Below, piece after piece: positions 5,002-18,865 of a stretch of DNA of 42,694 nt; position 1 is the stretch's first letter; each line of letters starts with the position of its first letter. The notes under the pieces are model-generated. The model ran no database searches. It was not told the DNA's origin and worked only from the letters and a program-made list of their open reading frames with translations. This DNA comes from Neglectibacter sp. X58 (GTDB taxonomy: Bacteria; Bacillota; Clostridia; Oscillospirales; Acutalibacteraceae). A program made the translations under genes and the position numbers. The stretch lies in NCBI RefSeq assembly GCF_009936035.1, contig NZ_QWEO01000021.1, forward strand, positions 1 to 42,694, read 5' to 3'.

Positions 5002-5772
5002 TTATTCCCCCTTTCTGAAATTCCCCCGCTCCAGCCTGAAAGACAGGATGACGTAAGCCGTTTTGAGAACAGCGGTATACAGCAGGGCCGGCAGCACCTG
5101 GGCCAGGCTTGGCCCTGCAATGCCTGGGCCGTCTGTGTAATTGAGCAGCGAAAACAACCCCAGCAGTGCCAGCAGGCTTCCCAGGGAAAGGGTTAAGGCC
5201 CCGGCGTATTTCACAGCCTGCTTGGCAAGGCCCAGTTCCTTTTCGGAAAGCCTTCTTCCCGGAAGGCACATTTTCCAGGCGTTCCGATAATCATGGAACC
5301 ATCCGGTGATGGACAGGATGGCAAGTTTCAGCCCCAGCAGATAGAGCAGGGTGGGCAGGTCGATTAAATCCGTAACCCGCCCTGTCCGCAGGGAAAACAG
5401 GAATAGATACAGCAGAGCCGCGGCAACAAGCAAAACGCCGGCGGCTGTGCCAATAGTCCGGCTTCGCCCCCGCTTGTCAATTTCATTCAGCTCACCGACC
5501 AGATCCACCAGGTTGTGCTGGGCCTTCTGTGCGTATTCCTCAGGAGAAAGGCCGTCAGCTAAAAACGCCTCCCCTGCCAAAAGCTCGTTTATGTCTGTTT
5601 TCAGCACAGAGCTGAGTTCCGGGAGCATAGCGGCATCCGGCAGGCGGACGCCTGTTTCCCATTTAGATACAGTTTTGTCGGTCACATGCAGCGGCTCTGC
5701 CAACTGCTTCTGGGTCAGCCCCAGCTTCCTCCTTCGTTCTGCAATAAACCGGCCTATTTTTTCCTGATCCAT
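5002..5772 (-). CDS. XRE regulator fused to membrane segments, ABC operon regulator
   Basis: 256 residues. The first 65 form an XRE/Cro helix-turn-helix (RKLGLTQKQLAEPLHVTDKTVSKWETG, PDAAMLPELSSVL). A linker leads to hydrophobic helices near 105-125, 140-160, 190-210 and 215-240, so the DNA-binding head is tethered to the membrane. Such HTH-membrane proteins are frequent next to clostridial ABC exporters and are thought to link membrane state or transporter activity to transcription; that is family inference. It is the first gene of the operon and is followed by the ATPase after three bases. Two GGGAGAAT direct repeats 20 bp apart upstream of its promoter are candidate binding sites. Confidence 0.85.
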   Translation of the reverse strand: MDQEKIGRFIAERRRKLGLTQKQLAEPLHVTDKTVSKWETGVRLPDAAMLPELSSVLKTDINELLAGEAFLADGLSPEEYAQKAQHNLVDLVGELNEIDKRGRSRTIGTAAGVLLVAAALLYLFLFSLRTGRVTDLIDLPTLLYLLGLKLAILSITGWFHDYRNAWKMCLPGRRLSEKELGLAKQAVKYAGALTLSLGSLLALLGLFSLLNYTDGPGIAGPSLAQVLPALLYTAVLKTAYVILSFRLERGNFRKGE

Positions 5773-5870: not shown

Positions 5871-5951
5871 GTCTGTCATCTGTTCTTAAAGCTGGAAAGA
5901 ACACGCCCTTTTTGCGCCCCTTTTGCCCAAAAGCCGCGGATGTTGCAAACT

Positions 5952-5994
5952 GTCACACGCATGCGACCCGCCGTCACGCATTTGCTGGTATAAT
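5952..5994 (+). promoter_or_regulatory. promoter region of the recombinase cassette with repeated half-sites
   Basis: A perfect TATAAT at 5989-5994 lies 30 bp before the XRE start; its -35 is weak. Upstream are two similar half-sites, GTCACACGCAT (5952-5962) and GTCACGCATTT (5973-5983), 21 bp apart and covering the -35 position. This is a likely operator for the repressor encoded immediately downstream. Confidence 0.6.
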
Positions 5995-6023
5995 TTCTAC
6001 TAAACAGCAAGGTGGTACTGAAC

Positions 6024-6341
6024 ATGATATTTCTTTTCCCTTCCAGGCTCAAAGAGCTTCGCCAGTCCATGAATCTCCACCAGGAAGCGCTGGCCAGTTT
6101 GTTAAGCGTAGACAGAAGCACCATCTCCTCTTACGAAAGCGATATGCGGCAGCCTCCGTTAGGCACGCTTATGCGGATCGCAGACGTATTTGGCGTAAGT
6201 ACAGATTATCTGCTGGGAAGGACAAAGCAGCTTTCCTTTGATGAATTTGACCTGGACGGGGAAGACATTGCGGCTCTCCGCAGGATGGCCTTCGCGCTTT
6301 CCGAAAAAAACAAGCGGATTCATCAGATGCAGGAACACTAA
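6024..6341 (+). CDS. XRE family repressor of the recombinase cassette
   Basis: A 105-residue phage-repressor-like protein. Residues 5-65 are an XRE helix-turn-helix (LRQSMNLHQEALASLLSVDRSTISSYESD, PPLGTLMRIADVFGVSTDYLLG); the short tail has no membrane segment. The ATG at 6024 follows AAGGTGG at good distance, better than the GTG at 6012, which lies in the ribosome site. It ends 12 bp before the serine recombinase and shares its direction, so it is probably the cassette's own repressor, like CI-type regulators of integrative elements. Repeated half-sites in its promoter support autoregulation (inference). Confidence 0.85.
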   Translation: MIFLFPSRLKELRQSMNLHQEALASLLSVDRSTISSYESDMRQPPLGTLMRIADVFGVSTDYLLGRTKQLSFDEFDLDGEDIAALRRMAFALSEKNKRIHQMQEH

Positions 6342-6353
6342 GGAGGTTATATA

Positions 6354-8180
6354 ATGCCCCAGGATAACAGGGAACCATTCGGAAAGATGTATCAAAGCGC
6401 GGAAGATGGCGGGACGGTATTCATCCCGGCCAGGCCGAGGGCCGGCTTGGGCGATCAAGCCAGGATATTAAGGGTATGTGCTTATTGCCGCGTATCTACA
6501 GGCAACGACGAGCAGCTTTCTTCCTTTGAGCTCCAGCAGGCGCACTATAAGCAGCTAGCCAAGGACAAGCCTAACTGGGATTTAAAGCATATTTATGCAG
6601 ACGCGGGCATTTCGGGCACTTCCCTGAAAAACCGCGACGCCTTCAACGCAATGATTGCCGCCTGCGAAAACGGGGAATATGATCTGATTGTGACAAAGCA
6701 GGTTTCCCGCTTTGCCAGGAACCTGGTAGACTGCATCTCCCTCATCCGGAAGCTCAAGAACCTTGAACCGCCTGTTGGCGTGCTTTTTGAAACAGACAAC
6801 CTGAACACGCTGGACAAAGACTCAGAATTCATACTGGCCTTTCTCGCCTCTTTCGCACAGGAAGAATCGATTAAAAAGCGGGAAGCCATGATCTGGTCGC
6901 TGGCACAGCGCTTCAAAGACCGCAGGCTGCTGACGCCCCCCTTGCTTGGATATGACCGGCAAAGGGATGCTGCCGGCAGCTATATCAAATACGCCCCCCT
7001 GATAGTCAATGAAGCCGAGGCCAGGGTCGTCCGCTTTATTTTCGATGCGTATTTATACGGCTGGACGCAGGCAGATATCGCGGCCTTCCTGACAGGCATT
7101 GACTGCCGGACAAAAACCGGAAGCACGAAATGGAACAGCAGCTCCATCGGGTATATCCTTTCAAACGAACGCTATTGCGGGGATGTCCTGACCTGGAAAA
7201 CCTTCACCTCAGACTTGTTCGAGCACAGGCGCAAAAAGAACAGGCAGGACATGGATCAATACTGCTATAAGGGGCAGCATGAAGCCATCATACCCCGGGA
7301 AAAGTTTGAGATGGTGCAGGCGCTCCTTCAAAACAGGAAACACCATATCCGGGGCGCCTTCCCCTGCCTTCACGTTATTGACGGCGGGGTATTCCGCGGC
7401 TTTGTCCCTATCAACCACCATTGGATCAATGAAGATCCAAGGCTTTACTATGATTCGTCCAACAGCGTGGATCAGAAGGCCGGGAAGATGCGGTTTGCGA
7501 AAAGTTCCTTCTCCGCGTTTGACCTGAAGGGCTACCAGGTGGTGCGGAACCAGTTTACGCAGGCCCGCTATGAAGGCCCGGCGGTGACAATATCCAACAA
7601 CCGGATCACATTCAACCTGTTTTGCATGCGGAAATTTGCAGACGCGGGCTATGCCCAGCTGCTTTTGCACCCTTCGGAACGGAAGCTGGCCATAAGGCCC
7701 TGCCAGGAAAGCGCCATGCACAGCATCCCTTGGCGTTCCGGCGCGGCAAAATCCTTGTACGCTAAAACCTTGTGCTGCCGGCACTTTGGCGCCGCCCTCT
7801 TCCGCATTATGGAGTGGGATCCGGATTTCCTTTACAGGGTGCGCGGGACATGGATACAGCGCGGGGAGGAGCAGATTATCATTTATAATCTGGAACATGC
7901 CGTATCTGCCGTCCTCCTGCCGCAAATGCGCGAAGCCCCTGGCCGGGAAACGCGGGCGGAGTGCTTCCCGGAACCATGGGAGGACAGCTTTGGGGAGGAG
8001 TTTTACGACCACATTATGGGAAACGAAGCCTTTTACATGGCGCGGGGCACGGCCTGGCAGGCGGGCAGGCCCAGCGTCCTGGCTCCAGGGATTGGGCAGT
8101 ATGTCCCGCAAACCGGCGGGGAGTTTCAGAAAATGATGGAAACATTGAGAAGAAAGGCGGCTTCCGGCGATGGCGGATAA
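6354..8180 (+). CDS. large serine recombinase with C-terminal uncharacterised domain
   Basis: 608 residues. The N-terminal resolvase domain holds the catalytic serine in AYCRVST (Ser48) and the usual DAGISGTSLKNRDAF, VTKQVSRFARN and ETDNLNTLDKDSEF motifs, with the long helix ending near 190. The recombinase DNA-binding domain follows (GYDRQRDAAGSYIKYAPLIVNEAEA ... WNSSSIGYILSNERYCGD, about 200-285). The four-cysteine zinc ribbon common in this family is not visible. Instead, about residues 393-510 form a domain (GYQVV ... ITFN ... LAIRPC ... MEWDPDFLYRV) that reappears in the three small genes downstream. RBS AGGAGGT precedes the ATG. It overlaps the next gene by 11 bp. Expected to integrate, excise or invert DNA between att sites; I could not identify those sites. 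Confidence 0.88.
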   Translation: MPQDNREPFGKMYQSAEDGGTVFIPARPRAGLGDQARILRVCAYCRVSTGNDEQLSSFELQQAHYKQLAKDKPNWDLKHIYADAGISGTSLKNRDAFNAMIAACENGEYDLIVTKQVSRFARNLVDCISLIRKLKNLEPPVGVLFETDNLNTLDKDSEFILAFLASFAQEESIKKREAMIWSLAQRFKDRRLLTPPLLGYDRQRDAAGSYIKYAPLIVNEAEARVVRFIFDAYLYGWTQADIAAFLTGIDCRTKTGSTKWNSSSIGYILSNERYCGDVLTWKTFTSDLFEHRRKKNRQDMDQYCYKGQHEAIIPREKFEMVQALLQNRKHHIRGAFPCLHVIDGGVFRGFVPINHHWINEDPRLYYDSSNSVDQKAGKMRFAKSSFSAFDLKGYQVVRNQFTQARYEGPAVTISNNRITFNLFCMRKFADAGYAQLLLHPSERKLAIRPCQESAMHSIPWRSGAAKSLYAKTLCCRHFGAALFRIMEWDPDFLYRVRGTWIQRGEEQIIIYNLEHAVSAVLLPQMREAPGRETRAECFPEPWEDSFGEEFYDHIMGNEAFYMARGTAWQAGRPSVLAPGIGQYVPQTGGEFQKMMETLRRKAASGDGG

Positions 8181-8760
8181 GCAACTGGAGGATATTTTCT
8201 CAAAGGCAAAGCCCATTGAGGAAGGAACGGAAACGGTAGCAGACCTGGCTGGGTACCAGGTCACAAAGGCAGAGCTTTTTTCCCATACCCGCGAGCCTGC
8301 CATCACGATTTGGCCTGCCCGCATCCGGTTCAATATGGCCTGCCTGCGGCGGTTCCCCGGCATCACCCACATACAGATTTTGATACATCCGGGGCAAAAA
8401 AGGCTGATCATCCGCCCCTGCCTTCCGGATGCGCCGGACTCCCTGCGATGGGCCAAAGGGAGTGAGAAGGAACGCGCAAGCCGCGACATGCTGTGCAGGA
8501 TATTCGCGGCAAAGGTTTTCGATCTGATGGGCTGGGACGGGGAATACCGCTATAAAGTGATGGGGAACCCGGCCGTCTATCAGAATGAAATGCTGTTCCT
8601 GTTCAAGCTGACAGATTTTGAATTATTTGCAGGCGGCAGCCAAAGGCATTCCTACCTTCCGGGGGAATGGAGGGATTATTTCGGGGTTCCGGCAGAACGC
8701 CATGAGGACAGCTATAAAATTGATTTGGCAGACGGCTATATTACAACAGAAAGCGTATAG
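8170..8760 (+). CDS. recombinase accessory protein 1, same domain as recombinase C-terminus
   Basis: 196 residues, overlapping the recombinase gene by 11 bp. Residues about 30-150 align by eye with the recombinase tail: GYQVTKAELF, ITIWPARIRFNMACLRRF, ILIHPGQKRLIIRPC, SLRWAKGS, then MLCRIFAAKVFDLMGWDGEYRYKV and a hydrophobic EMLFLFKL. There is no resolvase domain or catalytic serine, so it cannot recombine DNA alone. Homologues in gut Firmicutes are often labelled integrase without evidence. A DNA-binding or directionality role alongside the recombinase is my inference. The ATG at 8170 follows GAAAGGCGG. Translation is probably coupled to the recombinase. Confidence 0.75.
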   Translation: MADKQLEDIFSKAKPIEEGTETVADLAGYQVTKAELFSHTREPAITIWPARIRFNMACLRRFPGITHIQILIHPGQKRLIIRPCLPDAPDSLRWAKGSEKERASRDMLCRIFAAKVFDLMGWDGEYRYKVMGNPAVYQNEMLFLFKLTDFELFAGGSQRHSYLPGEWRDYFGVPAERHEDSYKIDLADGYITTESV

Positions 8761-8852
8761 GAGGGAAGGGTTTTGAAAAATACAACGAGAGGAGCGGTGC
8801 CAGGCGCACAAGGGCGGATATTGCCCGCCTTTATGCGCAAATTCCGTACCGC

Positions 8853-9320
8853 ATGGCGATTGATATGCCCATGAATCCATTCAGCACCGAGGTAGAGGCA
8901 ATTTCAATGGACGGCTTCCAGGTTGTCAGCGGGGAGTATTTCTCCCATTTCAACCGCTCTGTCACCCCTTCCTGCACGATTTGGAACGGCGGCATAACCT
9001 TTAACAAGGCATCGCTGACAGCGCTGAATAACTGCGAGCGGATACGCGTCGAGATAAACGCCCGGAAAATGTGCCTCCTGGCTGTCCCGGTCACCGCCAA
9101 AGACCGGGACGCCATCGTATGGAGGAAAAATGTGAAGGAATACGTGCCCAGGCGGATGGAATCCATCCGGTTTTCCTCCAGGATCTATGAAATGTGGGGC
9201 TGGGATCCGGATTTTACCTATCGGGCGCCGGGGCGCTTGGTAACAGTGGACAGCAAGGTGATGCTCCTCTATGATTTCAGCAGCCCGGAGCAGTGGGAGT
9301 CGAAAGGAAAAACGCGGTAA
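8853..9320 (+). CDS. recombinase accessory protein 2, start probably lost by frameshift
   Basis: The open frame from the ATG at 8853 gives 155 residues with the shared domain: DGFQVVSGEYFSHF, CTIWNGGITFNKASLTAL, IRVEINARKMCLLAVP, AIVWRKN, then SRIYEMWGWDPDFTYRAPG and VMLLYDFS. No ribosome site precedes 8853. A good one, GGAGGGAAGGG (8760-8770), precedes a TTG at 8773. Reading from there needs one extra A in the run at 8776-8780 to give MKKYNERSGARRTRADIARL and join the frame smoothly. The natural gene was therefore likely 8773-9320, with a one-base loss or read error in the A run. It ends one base before the next gene. Confidence 0.65.
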   Translation: MAIDMPMNPFSTEVEAISMDGFQVVSGEYFSHFNRSVTPSCTIWNGGITFNKASLTALNNCERIRVEINARKMCLLAVPVTAKDRDAIVWRKNVKEYVPRRMESIRFSSRIYEMWGWDPDFTYRAPGRLVTVDSKVMLLYDFSSPEQWESKGKTR

Positions 9321-9321
9321 A

Positions 9322-9672
9322 ATGAGCGGTATCCATATTTCTTTTTATTTAAAAGCAGGCCGCATCCATGTCTTTTCCCAGTCTCTCCGATGCCTGGGAA
9401 ACCCCGGGCGGATATGCTTTTTGATTGCCCGGGACGGGCAGACCTTGATGATGCGGCCCCACAAAAGCAGGGACTTCATTTCCCATAAGGTTCCCCGGGA
9501 GGTATACGGGGGCGGGCGCCCCTTTGAAGTCTCCAGCCGCAGGCTGTGCCGGGTTTTGTCCGGCATCCATGGCTGGGACTGCAACTGTTCCTACCGCGCG
9601 CCCGGCAAAGCCGCAGAAGGTTCAAAGGAAATCTTGTTCTTTCTGGATAAAGCGGATATGCTTTGCGTATAG
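9322..9672 (+). CDS. recombinase accessory protein 3
   Basis: 116 residues starting at the ATG at 9322, one base after the previous stop. It carries a shortened version of the shared domain: GIHISFYLKAGRIHVFSQSL, RICFLIARDGQTLMMRP, RPFEVSSRRLCRVLSGIHGWDCNCSYRAPG and a final EILFFLDKADMLCV. The first strand segment is reduced compared with accessory proteins 1 and 2. It is the last gene of the cassette and is followed by a strong terminator. Function unknown; its position implies a joint role with the recombinase. Confidence 0.7.
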   Translation: MSGIHISFYLKAGRIHVFSQSLRCLGNPGRICFLIARDGQTLMMRPHKSRDFISHKVPREVYGGGRPFEVSSRRLCRVLSGIHGWDCNCSYRAPGKAAEGSKEILFFLDKADMLCV

Positions 9673-9757: not shown

Positions 9758-9806
9758 AAAAGCAGCGGAAAAGCCACCGGCAAGGTGTCCATTTCCGCTG
9801 CTTTTT
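9758..9806 (+). terminator. terminator of the recombinase cassette
   Basis: A 14-bp stem AAAAGCAGCGGAAA / TTTCCGCTGCTTTT, with a smaller CACC/GGTG pairing in the loop, ends in CTTTTTCTC. It closes the XRE-recombinase-accessory operon. Confidence 0.85.
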
Positions 9807-10112: not shown

Positions 10113-12176
<2,064 letters not shown>

Positions 12177-12292: not shown

Positions 12293-12934
12293 ATGAGATG
12301 GAAAAGACGCCGCAGGCCCCCGGCCCGGCACAAAAGGGCCTTTGGGGCCGTAGGGCTGGCGCTGCTGCTGTGCGCCCTCTGGACACTGTGCTGGGAACGG
12401 GGCCTTGCCGCCCTGTCGCCAGAGCTTATTGAGGAAGCGGCCCGGGGCTATGTGCTGGAATGCCTAACGCAGGCGGTAGAGGAGGAAATGGCCGGGGAAG
12501 AAAGCCCTTACATACAGGTGGAACGGGACAGCAAAGGCCAGATTACCGCCGCCAGCGCCAATCCACATGCCCTGAACCAGCTAAAAGCCAGGGTGCTGGA
12601 ACGGCTTTCCCAAAGCCTGAACGGGCGCAGGGAAATAAAGGTGCCCCTGGGCAGCCTGACAGGCATTAGGATCTTAAACGGCAGGGGCTTCTGCGTGCCG
12701 GTGCGCATGGCTTTTGAAGGCTCTGCCAACCTCCGCTTTGACACAGAGTTCGCCACCGCCGGGGTAAACCAGAGCCTGCACAGGATTACCATGACTGTAA
12801 CCGCCTATGCCTATTCCCAATCCCGCCGCTTTGAAGCCAAGGTGGAGGAATCCACCTCCACTGTGCTGGCAGAAACCCTGGTGGTAGGCCCTGTGCCCTC
12901 CCTGGCCCTGGCAGGCGGCAAGGGAGGAGGTTAG
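12293..12934 (+). CDS. yunB: sporulation protein YunB
   Basis: 213 residues: a basic start (RWKRRRRPPARHKR), one membrane helix near 20-37, then an outside or intermembrane domain with the YunB pattern: LSPELIEEAARGYVLECLTQAV, a central NALNQL-type segment, REIKVPLGSLTGIRILNGRG, VPVRMAFEGSANLRFDTEFATAGVNQSLHRI and a final LVVGPVPS. YunB is needed for normal endospore formation in Bacillus and is widespread in spore-forming Firmicutes; its biochemical role is unknown. I start it at the ATG at 12293 after TGGAGGTG rather than the GTG at 12269. Its stop overlaps the stop of the convergent next gene by 3 bp (TTAG). It indicates that the host forms spores. Confidence 0.88.
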   Translation: MRWKRRRRPPARHKRAFGAVGLALLLCALWTLCWERGLAALSPELIEEAARGYVLECLTQAVEEEMAGEESPYIQVERDSKGQITAASANPHALNQLKARVLERLSQSLNGRREIKVPLGSLTGIRILNGRGFCVPVRMAFEGSANLRFDTEFATAGVNQSLHRITMTVTAYAYSQSRRFEAKVEESTSTVLAETLVVGPVPSLALAGGKGGG

Positions 12935-18175: not shown

Positions 18176-18272
18176 CTATAGTAAACGCACTTGAAAATCG
18201 GGATGTACCGATTTTCAAACCAGGCGGCTTTACCGCCTGGTTCAAAAGAGGCATTCTGCCTCTTTTGGACTG
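18176..18272. repeat. triple-hairpin intergenic repeat, copy 1
   Basis: Begins CTATAGTAAACGCACTT and contains three successive perfect hairpins: GAAAATCGG..CCGATTTTC (18193-18216), CCAGGCGGctttaCCGCCTGG (18220-18240) and CAAAAGAGGcattctgCCTCTTTTG (18243-18267). The same arrangement in reverse orientation occurs at 42071-42160. It ends three bases before the stop codon of the kinase gene at 18275, so it could act as a terminator or RNA-stability element for that transcript. Confidence 0.85.
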
Positions 18273-18274
18273 CA

Positions 18275-18865
18275 TTAACGATATCCTTCCAGCTCAAAGC
18301 ACAGCGCGCACCGCTCCCCTATCCCAAAGGCTTCAAAATACCGCTCCTCCAGGGGGATCCATTTGTCCCGGAACTGGGAGAGCGCCTGGGAGCCATTGCG
18401 GGCTTCAATGCGGGCAAGCTGCTTTTGGGGGCTGACATGCAGGAACACCCGCAGGTGGTATGCGTCCCACAGGGCAGGATGGCAGCTATAGGAACCTTCT
18501 ATAATGACGGCAGGGCCTGCCTCTATCCGGACAGGCGGGGAAAAGCTTTGGCTGTGGCAGTCATAGGGGCGGTAAACCGCATCCCGGCCTGCCTGGAGGG
18601 GGAGGAGCACTTCCTCTAAAAAGCGCTCCCTATCCACATTGCCTCCCGGTTCTGCCAGTCGGGCCTCCGTCCGCTGGGCTGGGCGCAGAAAGAAGTGATC
18701 CATATGCACAACGCCCCAGCCTGTCTCCTGGCGGAGCGCCTGGGCCAAGGTGGTTTTCCCGGCGGCGCAGCGGCCGTCTATGGCCACCAGGAAGGGAGAC
18801 CCTGTCCGGGGTACCCCGGCGACTTTAGCGGAAGCGGCAGCCGCGTTAAGCTTCTGTATGTTCAT
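18275..18865 (-). CDS. uridine kinase-like P-loop kinase
   Basis: 196 residues of the uridine kinase/phosphoribulokinase-like group. Walker A is GRCAAGKT (31-38). Following motifs are VVHMDHFFLRPAQR (a substrate-binding Asp of the DxFY type), YDCHSQSF and PAVIIEGSYSCHPAL (EG of Walker B), then the lid RIEARNG. The length is normal. The start overlaps the end of the ECF-S gene by 20 bp, so the two are translationally coupled and may handle the same vitamin or nucleoside: uptake followed by phosphorylation trapping. The substrate is not known. Uridine is only the nearest family name. Confidence 0.78.
   Translation of the reverse strand: MNIQKLNAAAASAKVAGVPRTGSPFLVAIDGRCAAGKTTLAQALRQETGWGVVHMDHFFLRPAQRTEARLAEPGGNVDRERFLEEVLLPLQAGRDAVYRPYDCHSQSFSPPVRIEAGPAVIIEGSYSCHPALWDAYHLRVFLHVSPQKQLARIEARNGSQALSQFRDKWIPLEERYFEAFGIGERCALCFELEGYR

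Follow-up and report, generated by a model that had tools for sequence, protein, structure and literature searches.

What does a large serine recombinase (LSR) without a zinc ribbon do with three small proteins that share its C-terminal domain and are encoded directly behind it? This question is raised by a cassette at positions 6024-9672 of the window, by which we mean the whole stretch of DNA that was analysed (NZ_QWEO01000021.1, positions 1 to 42,694, from Neglectibacter sp. X58). The cassette contains xre, a gene for a 608-aa LSR (rec) and the small genes s1, s2 and s3. The domain in question, here called TAILD, represents a genuine family that has no name in the libraries searched and is tied to serine recombinases. 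That the operon encodes a single multi-protein recombination machine, in which free tail subunits set the site choice or the direction of the LSR, is a reading to which we give an even chance.

The recombinase tail and its free copies

The recombinase and the tail-domain genes are arranged as follows:

6354..8180, + strand: rec, large serine recombinase, 608 aa (Pfam Resolvase E 2.8e-24 and Recombinase E 1.4e-20; Foldseek 9dxd)
6477..6911, + strand: catalytic (Resolvase, PF00239) domain of rec, residues 42-186, expected nucleophile Ser48 (conserved catalytic residues)
7014..7337, + strand: Recombinase domain of rec, residues 221-328 (PF07508)
7386..7424, + strand: cysteine-free motif G-V-F-R-G-F-V...W at the expected zinc-ribbon position (rec alignment)
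7512..7952, + strand: rec tail domain, TAILD (pairwise BLAST; hidden Markov model E 2e-56, partly by construction because the rec tail is a row of the model)
8170..8760, + strand: s1, free tail-domain protein, 196 aa (11-bp overlap with rec)
8853..9320, + strand: s2, free tail-domain protein, 155 aa (list of open reading frames (ORFs), pairwise comparison)
9322..9672, + strand: s3, most diverged free tail-domain protein, 116 aa from ATG 9322 (pairwise comparison, profile)

The homology of these proteins was assessed by pairwise BLAST, run at a database size of only 2000 residues, and by Smith-Waterman z values from 500 shuffles per pair. The tail matched s1 (BLAST 5e-28, z = 42.8) and s2 (1e-10, z = 18.8), s1 and s2 matched each other (3e-16, z = 25.2), and s3 matched both s2 (5e-6, z = 9.8) and s1 (6e-4, z = 6.9). 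A search of its own genome with the whole recombinase likewise returned s1 at 6.4e-24 and s2 at 2.8e-7. As s3 has no direct match to the tail, it joins the family mainly through s2, and further through s1 and the family profile; the 17-row profile finds s3 at 8e-33, although s3 is itself one of its rows. An earlier note on this DNA had claimed a domain common to the recombinase tail and all three small proteins, and the homology of the four agrees with this, except that s3 is not linked to the tail directly. The shared region, which had been placed at about residues 393-510 of the recombinase, was located there but is somewhat longer (about 387-533, ~145 residues).

The catalytic part of the recombinase is conserved. 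In an alignment of 36 recombinases, including that of the window, residues S118, R119, R122 and N123 were kept in 36/36 rows, and R46 and S48 in all 32 rows covering them, the four further rows being gapped. With both required domains and the catalytic Ser and Arg, rec classifies by sequence as an LSR in the broad sense. Past the Recombinase domain the Pfam scan of rec gave no match, zinc ribbon PF13408 included, and 0/36 rows had a CxxC in the segment that leads from the recombinase domain to the tail; L158 alone has a CxxC, but further on than the zinc-ribbon position. Thus the zinc ribbon is absent, as had been suspected, and rec would fall outside the zinc-ribbon subclass of LSRs (serine integrases). 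At its expected position the cysteine-free motif remains, in which G345 and G349 are joined by W357, an almost invariant residue, and a similar motif lies near the C-terminus of tail-less recombinases (L148, L150 and L232). The AF2 model of rec (36 sequences, mean pLDDT 76.4) had as its best solved Foldseek match 9dxd, a serine integrase with a recombination directionality factor (RDF; E 3e-17, 306 alignment columns). Past residue 328, where the coiled-coil insertion of a zinc domain was looked for, the model contains a C-terminal helix (588-604) and no long helix pair, with residues ~376-404 and 544-564 at pLDDT <50.

The link of TAILD with recombinases was then apparent from its distribution (all genome counts include the window's own genome). 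The rec tail was matched in 9/29 genomes of the genus, and TAILD in 34 of 394 genomes of the order with the 17-row profile, whose rows were drawn from the window and five genus loci, and in 12 of 391 genomes of the class with a wider profile. Among the 34 order genomes, TAILD was fused to an LSR in 21, had an LSR beside it in six and had none in the stretch examined in seven; 'beside' means a same-strand LSR no more than 1.1 kb away, a cut of our own, and ORFs were scored in one stretch per genome. One of the six is a decayed copy in G007, and in the other five (G008, G097, G279, G322 and G344) a single free TAILD gene comes right after an LSR ORF. In three loci of this split form (L148, L150, L232) the LSR C-terminus ends soon past the cysteine-free motif, and L231 and L235 were assigned to it by position and length alone. 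Therefore, as the earlier note expected, TAILD co-occurs with serine recombinases (27/34 genomes, fused or beside), and the small genes are not commonly found without one. Fusion in one lineage and separation in another is a classic sign of proteins working together. The fusions in 21/34 genomes and the split pairs in five thus make it likely that these proteins work together, and the comparative support for a joint function of TAILD proteins and recombinase is good as far as sequence comparison reaches. Because the number of LSRs per genome can be high (31 recombinase matches in the window's own genome, G000), chance may explain some of the adjacency, not the fusion.

The 31 recombinase matches of G000 (E <= 0.001), three of which are in the window (rec, s1 and s2), include several in tandem pairs or groups, so this genome is rich in LSRs. 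L146 and L147 also have open free TAILD genes, of 128 and 130 aa respectively; the stretches examined there, 9 and 13 kb long, contain no LSR.

Structure, operon and paralogues

None of s1-s3 reached a curated cut-off in Pfam or NCBIfam, nor any PHROG at E <= 1, and the small proteins accordingly stay outside known unrelated families. The 73 TAILD members gave weak matches to 16 Pfam families. A weak DUF6128 signal appeared in 13/73 members at E <= 1 (best E 0.0034), the gathering score of 27 bits not being reached (13.9 bits for the window s1); DUF6128 matched 0/20 relative genomes and likewise 0/14 control genomes, so that comparison is uninformative. No paper describing TAILD by its title or the start of its abstract was found among the literature matches listed.

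The s1 model (73 sequences, mean pLDDT 82.4, pTM 0.70) consists of two b-b-a-b-b halves. In the rec-tail model, the first half has strands 410-413 and 417-420, helix 422-427 and strands 433-439 and 444-450, and the second has 471-474, helix 476-486, 493-503 and 506-512. On the view of the earlier note, all four regions should match in structure; the near-identical strand and helix order of s1 and the rec tail agrees with this, in a comparison made by order and for those two only. In PDB, Foldseek found no match to TAILD at E <= 0.001 (best 0.12, in the best 50 of 693 rows), and sliding clamps, which occupied the top rows, were rejected as the fold, as they reached E 0.12 but TM of 0.10-0.17. 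A PDB sequence search gave no match at E <= 10. Against BFVD viral models, again with none at E <= 0.001, uncharacterised phage proteins (E 0.0018-0.03, TM about 0.34-0.46) provide a lead only.

By eye, b-b-a-b-b twice resembles the MraZ/AbrB DNA-binding fold, which could make the small proteins transcriptional regulators or decoys of the operon, acting outside recombination, and the TAILD genes without an LSR in 7/34 genomes would fit such a role. The profile comparison with MraZ/AbrB was not significant (hhalign probability at most 1.2%), this family was absent from the 16 weak Pfam families of the 73 members and from the best 50 of 693 PDB Foldseek rows, and the fold was not supported for TAILD. 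Moreover, TAILD comes either within the recombinase or from the gene that follows, and the operon already has Xre. We consider a purely regulatory role improbable.

The remaining features of the operon are these:

5926..6023, + strand: promoter/operator region of xre (shared by cassettes whose surroundings differ)
6024..6341, + strand: xre, Cro/CI-type regulator, 105 aa from ATG 6024 (Pfam HTH_3 E 4.7e-16)
9758..9805, + strand: likely intrinsic terminator 3' of s3 (14-bp perfect inverted repeat, 20-nt loop, T-rich after)

The ORFs of a compact operon behind an Xre regulator were thus found where they had been described. The xre ORF is open from 6012, and the region upstream, where DNA similarity of the window to cassettes elsewhere begins (5926-5940), holds a TATAAT and a palindrome of the GTCRCA-N4-TGCGAC type, spotted by eye. 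The start of s3 is most likely ATG 9322, one base past the s2 stop. The terminator was judged by sequence features, without a terminator program.

In a tabulation of 27 loci (8 from the genus and 19 from genome_contigs, the latter mostly metagenome-assembled genomes, under the record titles Oscillospiraceae, Lachnospiraceae, Eubacterium, Clostridia or Clostridiales), 26 had the fused form, 19 of them with three small domain ORFs. A gene for an AAA_25-like ATPase lies upstream of rec in 12/40 oriented loci and is missing from the window. There is also a second operon type, in which rec-s1-s3 is followed by a gene without a Pfam match (one tested) and then by a DUF6551 gene.

A single FastTree tree was built from 149 domains, with labels assigned by gene order. 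All s2 proteins (24/24) formed one clade (support 0.996), and 34/36 s3 proteins grouped with the L149 orphan (0.964), the exceptions being two fragments, of L038 and L169, that had been labelled s3 by gene order. The s1 clade comprised 36/40 members plus the L038 and L169 fragments, with weak support (0.611), and 25/40 tails fell in a pure clade (0.998). On this tree, s2 and s3 are taken to be old, separate paralogues. The ratio of nonsynonymous to synonymous changes (dN/dS), from ORFs taken stop to stop, so that some s1 values include the rec overlap, was 0.06-0.29 for rec, s1 and s2 in seven pairs, apart from the pair L156/L159 (s1 1.17, s2 0; few changes in the pair), and 0.15-0.50 for s3 (five pairs). 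The small genes could in principle be recent copies of the recombinase tail with no role, given that they stand in tandem behind a tail-bearing gene; with s2 and s3 in separate supported clades over many loci and dN/dS mostly low, we think this very improbable.

Surroundings of the cassette

Close cassettes share ~3.8 kb and then diverge (96% over 3837 bp for L161/L162, 84% over 3838 bp for L151/L152). The cassette of four genus genomes (G002, G003, G009 and G020) is contained in an element that interrupts spoIIID and carries its own 515-aa LSR, whose G002 copy has a zinc ribbon, together with an MNT/HEPN pair. The gene for this LSR ends at the spoIIID junction in L033 (G003), L035 (G020), L036 (G002) and L037 (G009), and the junctions share the core ACATA (L036 left GGTACATATGG, right CCATACATAA). 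The G002 element also contains a 67-aa piece that resembles, in DNA and by eye (no Pfam match), the relaxase start of a related element of G008; the latter has relaxase and MobC domains, and G008 has no fused cassette. In L040 (G026), the spoIIID start is present twice, as a direct repeat of 159 bp (99%) at 5226-5384 and 12719-12877 that flanks an element at spoIIID, with a whole spoIIID at one end.

At spoIVB, the gene is split at GM|SGAP in G008 (L306/L325) and G026 (L305/L326), with three ordinary LSR genes (536, 564 and 547 aa) near its 3' part and element arms that look like inverted repeats (GAGTGTGTCA...TAGGGACAACA). This insertion, whose spoIVB halves are on different contigs in each genome, is possibly a skin-like element. 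In G023 (L034), the cassette adjoins at spoIVB an arm that also ends this three-LSR element, with an intact spoIVB at 6836-8005 and a displaced spoIVB 3' piece at 11428-11715 on the far side of the cassette, and in G011 (L282) the outer flank of L034 directly follows spoIVB. The TAILD recombinase had been considered as the spoIVB integrase; this was withdrawn, since the identical arm in G008 and G026 ends an element with three ordinary LSRs. A decayed cassette also lies beside spoIVB in G007 (L038/L307), where xre, together with part of the N-terminal region of the recombinase, has the opposite orientation to the rest; a 107-bp stretch of the window (18177-18283) is 77.6% similar to this region (L038 oriented 8559-8665) and is possibly a dispersed repeat.

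The set is also found in phages. At E <= 0.01, s1 matched 20 phage records and the tail 24. The two records inspected (PV036435 and PV036410; L321 and L322), both labelled Ca. Heliusvirales, carry the set, with the tail-domain recombinase annotated as a hypothetical protein, and two further LSRs each, annotated as integrase and hypothetical in one phage and as integrase and DNA invertase in the other. Among 13 viral contigs, two other LSR ORFs lie just upstream in nine, one in two (L310, L311) and none in two (L319, L320; stretch examined). The recurring 3.8-kb unit, the spoIIID element, the spoIVB arm and the phage contigs together show a modular set that travels.

The window copy interrupts no gene, as its neighbours (5002-5772, and ligA at 10113-12095) lie outside the cassette, and it is not a skin-like gene-intervening element. 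In the window ligA the expected Pfam domains are in place, N-terminal domain through BRCT, and ligA was matched in 27/29 genus genomes. It was rejected as a target, the other window ORFs of at least 90 aa being matched in none of 10 downstream stretches (one only 5.4 kb). No relative with the flanks of the window cassette was seen among the genus genomes compared.

These surroundings raise the alternative of an accessory module that phages and integrative elements carry, for example as a resolvase or a controller of the element's own LSR, with the window copy a stranded piece of such an element. The other LSRs beside the set in most of the viral contigs and in both inspected phages, the 515-aa LSR of the spoIIID element and the arm of the three-LSR element at spoIVB are all in line with it, whereas the ~3.8-kb unit recurs in different flanks (L161/L162), dN/dS is mostly low, and the 42.7-kb window contig, searched with the recombinase, has no other LSR match at E <= 0.001. 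We regard an accessory role as a tentative option, short of an even chance. The earlier proposal of a self-contained machine was not established as far as movement of the set by its own att sites goes; elsewhere the set lies in or beside elements with ordinary LSRs.

Proposed function and comparison with known systems

In the reading of the operon as one recombination machine, the catalytic subunit would be a serine recombinase with TAILD in place of the zinc ribbon; TAILD would have taken over the role of the zinc part, with the free copies binding alongside or against the tail. Together with the recombinase tail, the proteins s1, s2 and s3 would form an assembly on the DNA of the recombination sites, and they would determine site usage or direction; Xre would keep the operon off, and mobile DNA would carry the set as a compact module, alone, in mobilisable elements and in temperate phages. 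We infer that the proteins physically assemble, contact DNA and control site or direction, and that Xre represses the operon; the basic isoelectric points (pI) of the tail (9.5), s2 (8.8) and s3 (9.7) would be compatible with DNA contact. A more specific version, in which a heteromeric integrase made of a catalytic chain and three different, exchangeable tail-domain proteins jointly reads asymmetric sites, the split tail-less forms being its simplest version, is also possible, although we would sooner doubt it than accept it.

Several results weigh against the single machine. The tail and s3 gave no significant direct match (BLAST 0.48-0.65, Smith-Waterman z = 2.7), and the pI of s1 (6.2) would suit a protein partner better than DNA. 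The age of the paralogues is read from a single FastTree tree with gene-order labels. Seven of the 34 order genomes had no LSR in the stretch examined; among them, G297, G379 and G411 look like fragments, and G039, G081, G157 and G294 have open small genes. Other LSRs accompany the set in phages and integrative elements, so rec need not be the integrase. End repeats were tested in 24 and then 30 of the 40 loci with a located recombinase, the others having no located xre or not enough flank. The 9-bp direct repeat at the window ends was not above control, being reached by 15/47 cross pairs, and end repeats stood out in 2/30 loci only (L034 and L151), too few to define att, so direct repeats were rejected as att cores. 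The L034 repeat was reached by 0/58 cross pairs, its 17 bp being spoIVB coding sequence present twice, and that of L151 (12 bp exact, 78 bp imperfect) by 1/58.

The choice of sites and direction by LSRs has long been debated, and most work on it concerns enzymes of a single chain whose RDFs are unrelated. In a natural system with a domain at the controlling position that is present in one operon as a fusion and as free copies, and across many gut bacteria and phages, that domain could be removed or added in trans. TAILD would also give a family to genes annotated as hypothetical in the gut phages PV036435 and PV036410.

The window system is a variant of LSR systems, not new chemistry. It resembles the serine integrases (phiC31, Bxb1, Listeria integrase) in its Resolvase and Recombinase domains, its catalytic Ser and Arg and its 9dxd match, and differs from them in having no zinc ribbon but a ~145-residue TAILD, with free copies in the operon. 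Skin, gin and SPbeta are LSR elements in sporulation genes, like the elements that carry or adjoin the set at spoIIID and spoIVB; there, however, another LSR is the likelier integrase, and the window copy lies between genes. The Ccr systems combine catalytic subunits, whereas the extra subunits of the window operon have no catalytic domain. CcrA/CcrB/CcrC of SCC are nevertheless alike in being a multi-protein LSR system (ccrA/ccrB, in the part of PMC5595907 drawn on here), and the NCBIfam CcrB model matches rec at 39-327 (E 1e-26), far below its cut-off (93.6 vs. 900 bits).

According to the part of PMC3783163 used here, the zinc domain and coiled coil of serine integrases contact the half-site and govern synapsis and direction, RDFs may act there, and Bxb1 gp47 and phiC31 gp3 do not resemble each other. 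Small RDF partners control the LSR in skin(Cd) (PMC5025042) and in gin (PMC5595907), as given in the corresponding parts of these sources. Such RDFs (CD1234 of skin(Cd), GirX of gin, phiC31 gp3 and Bxb1 gp47) are likewise encoded with an LSR element, and control direction; whereas no shared domain of this kind is named for them in those parts, here the recombinase has a domain in common with two or three paralogues.

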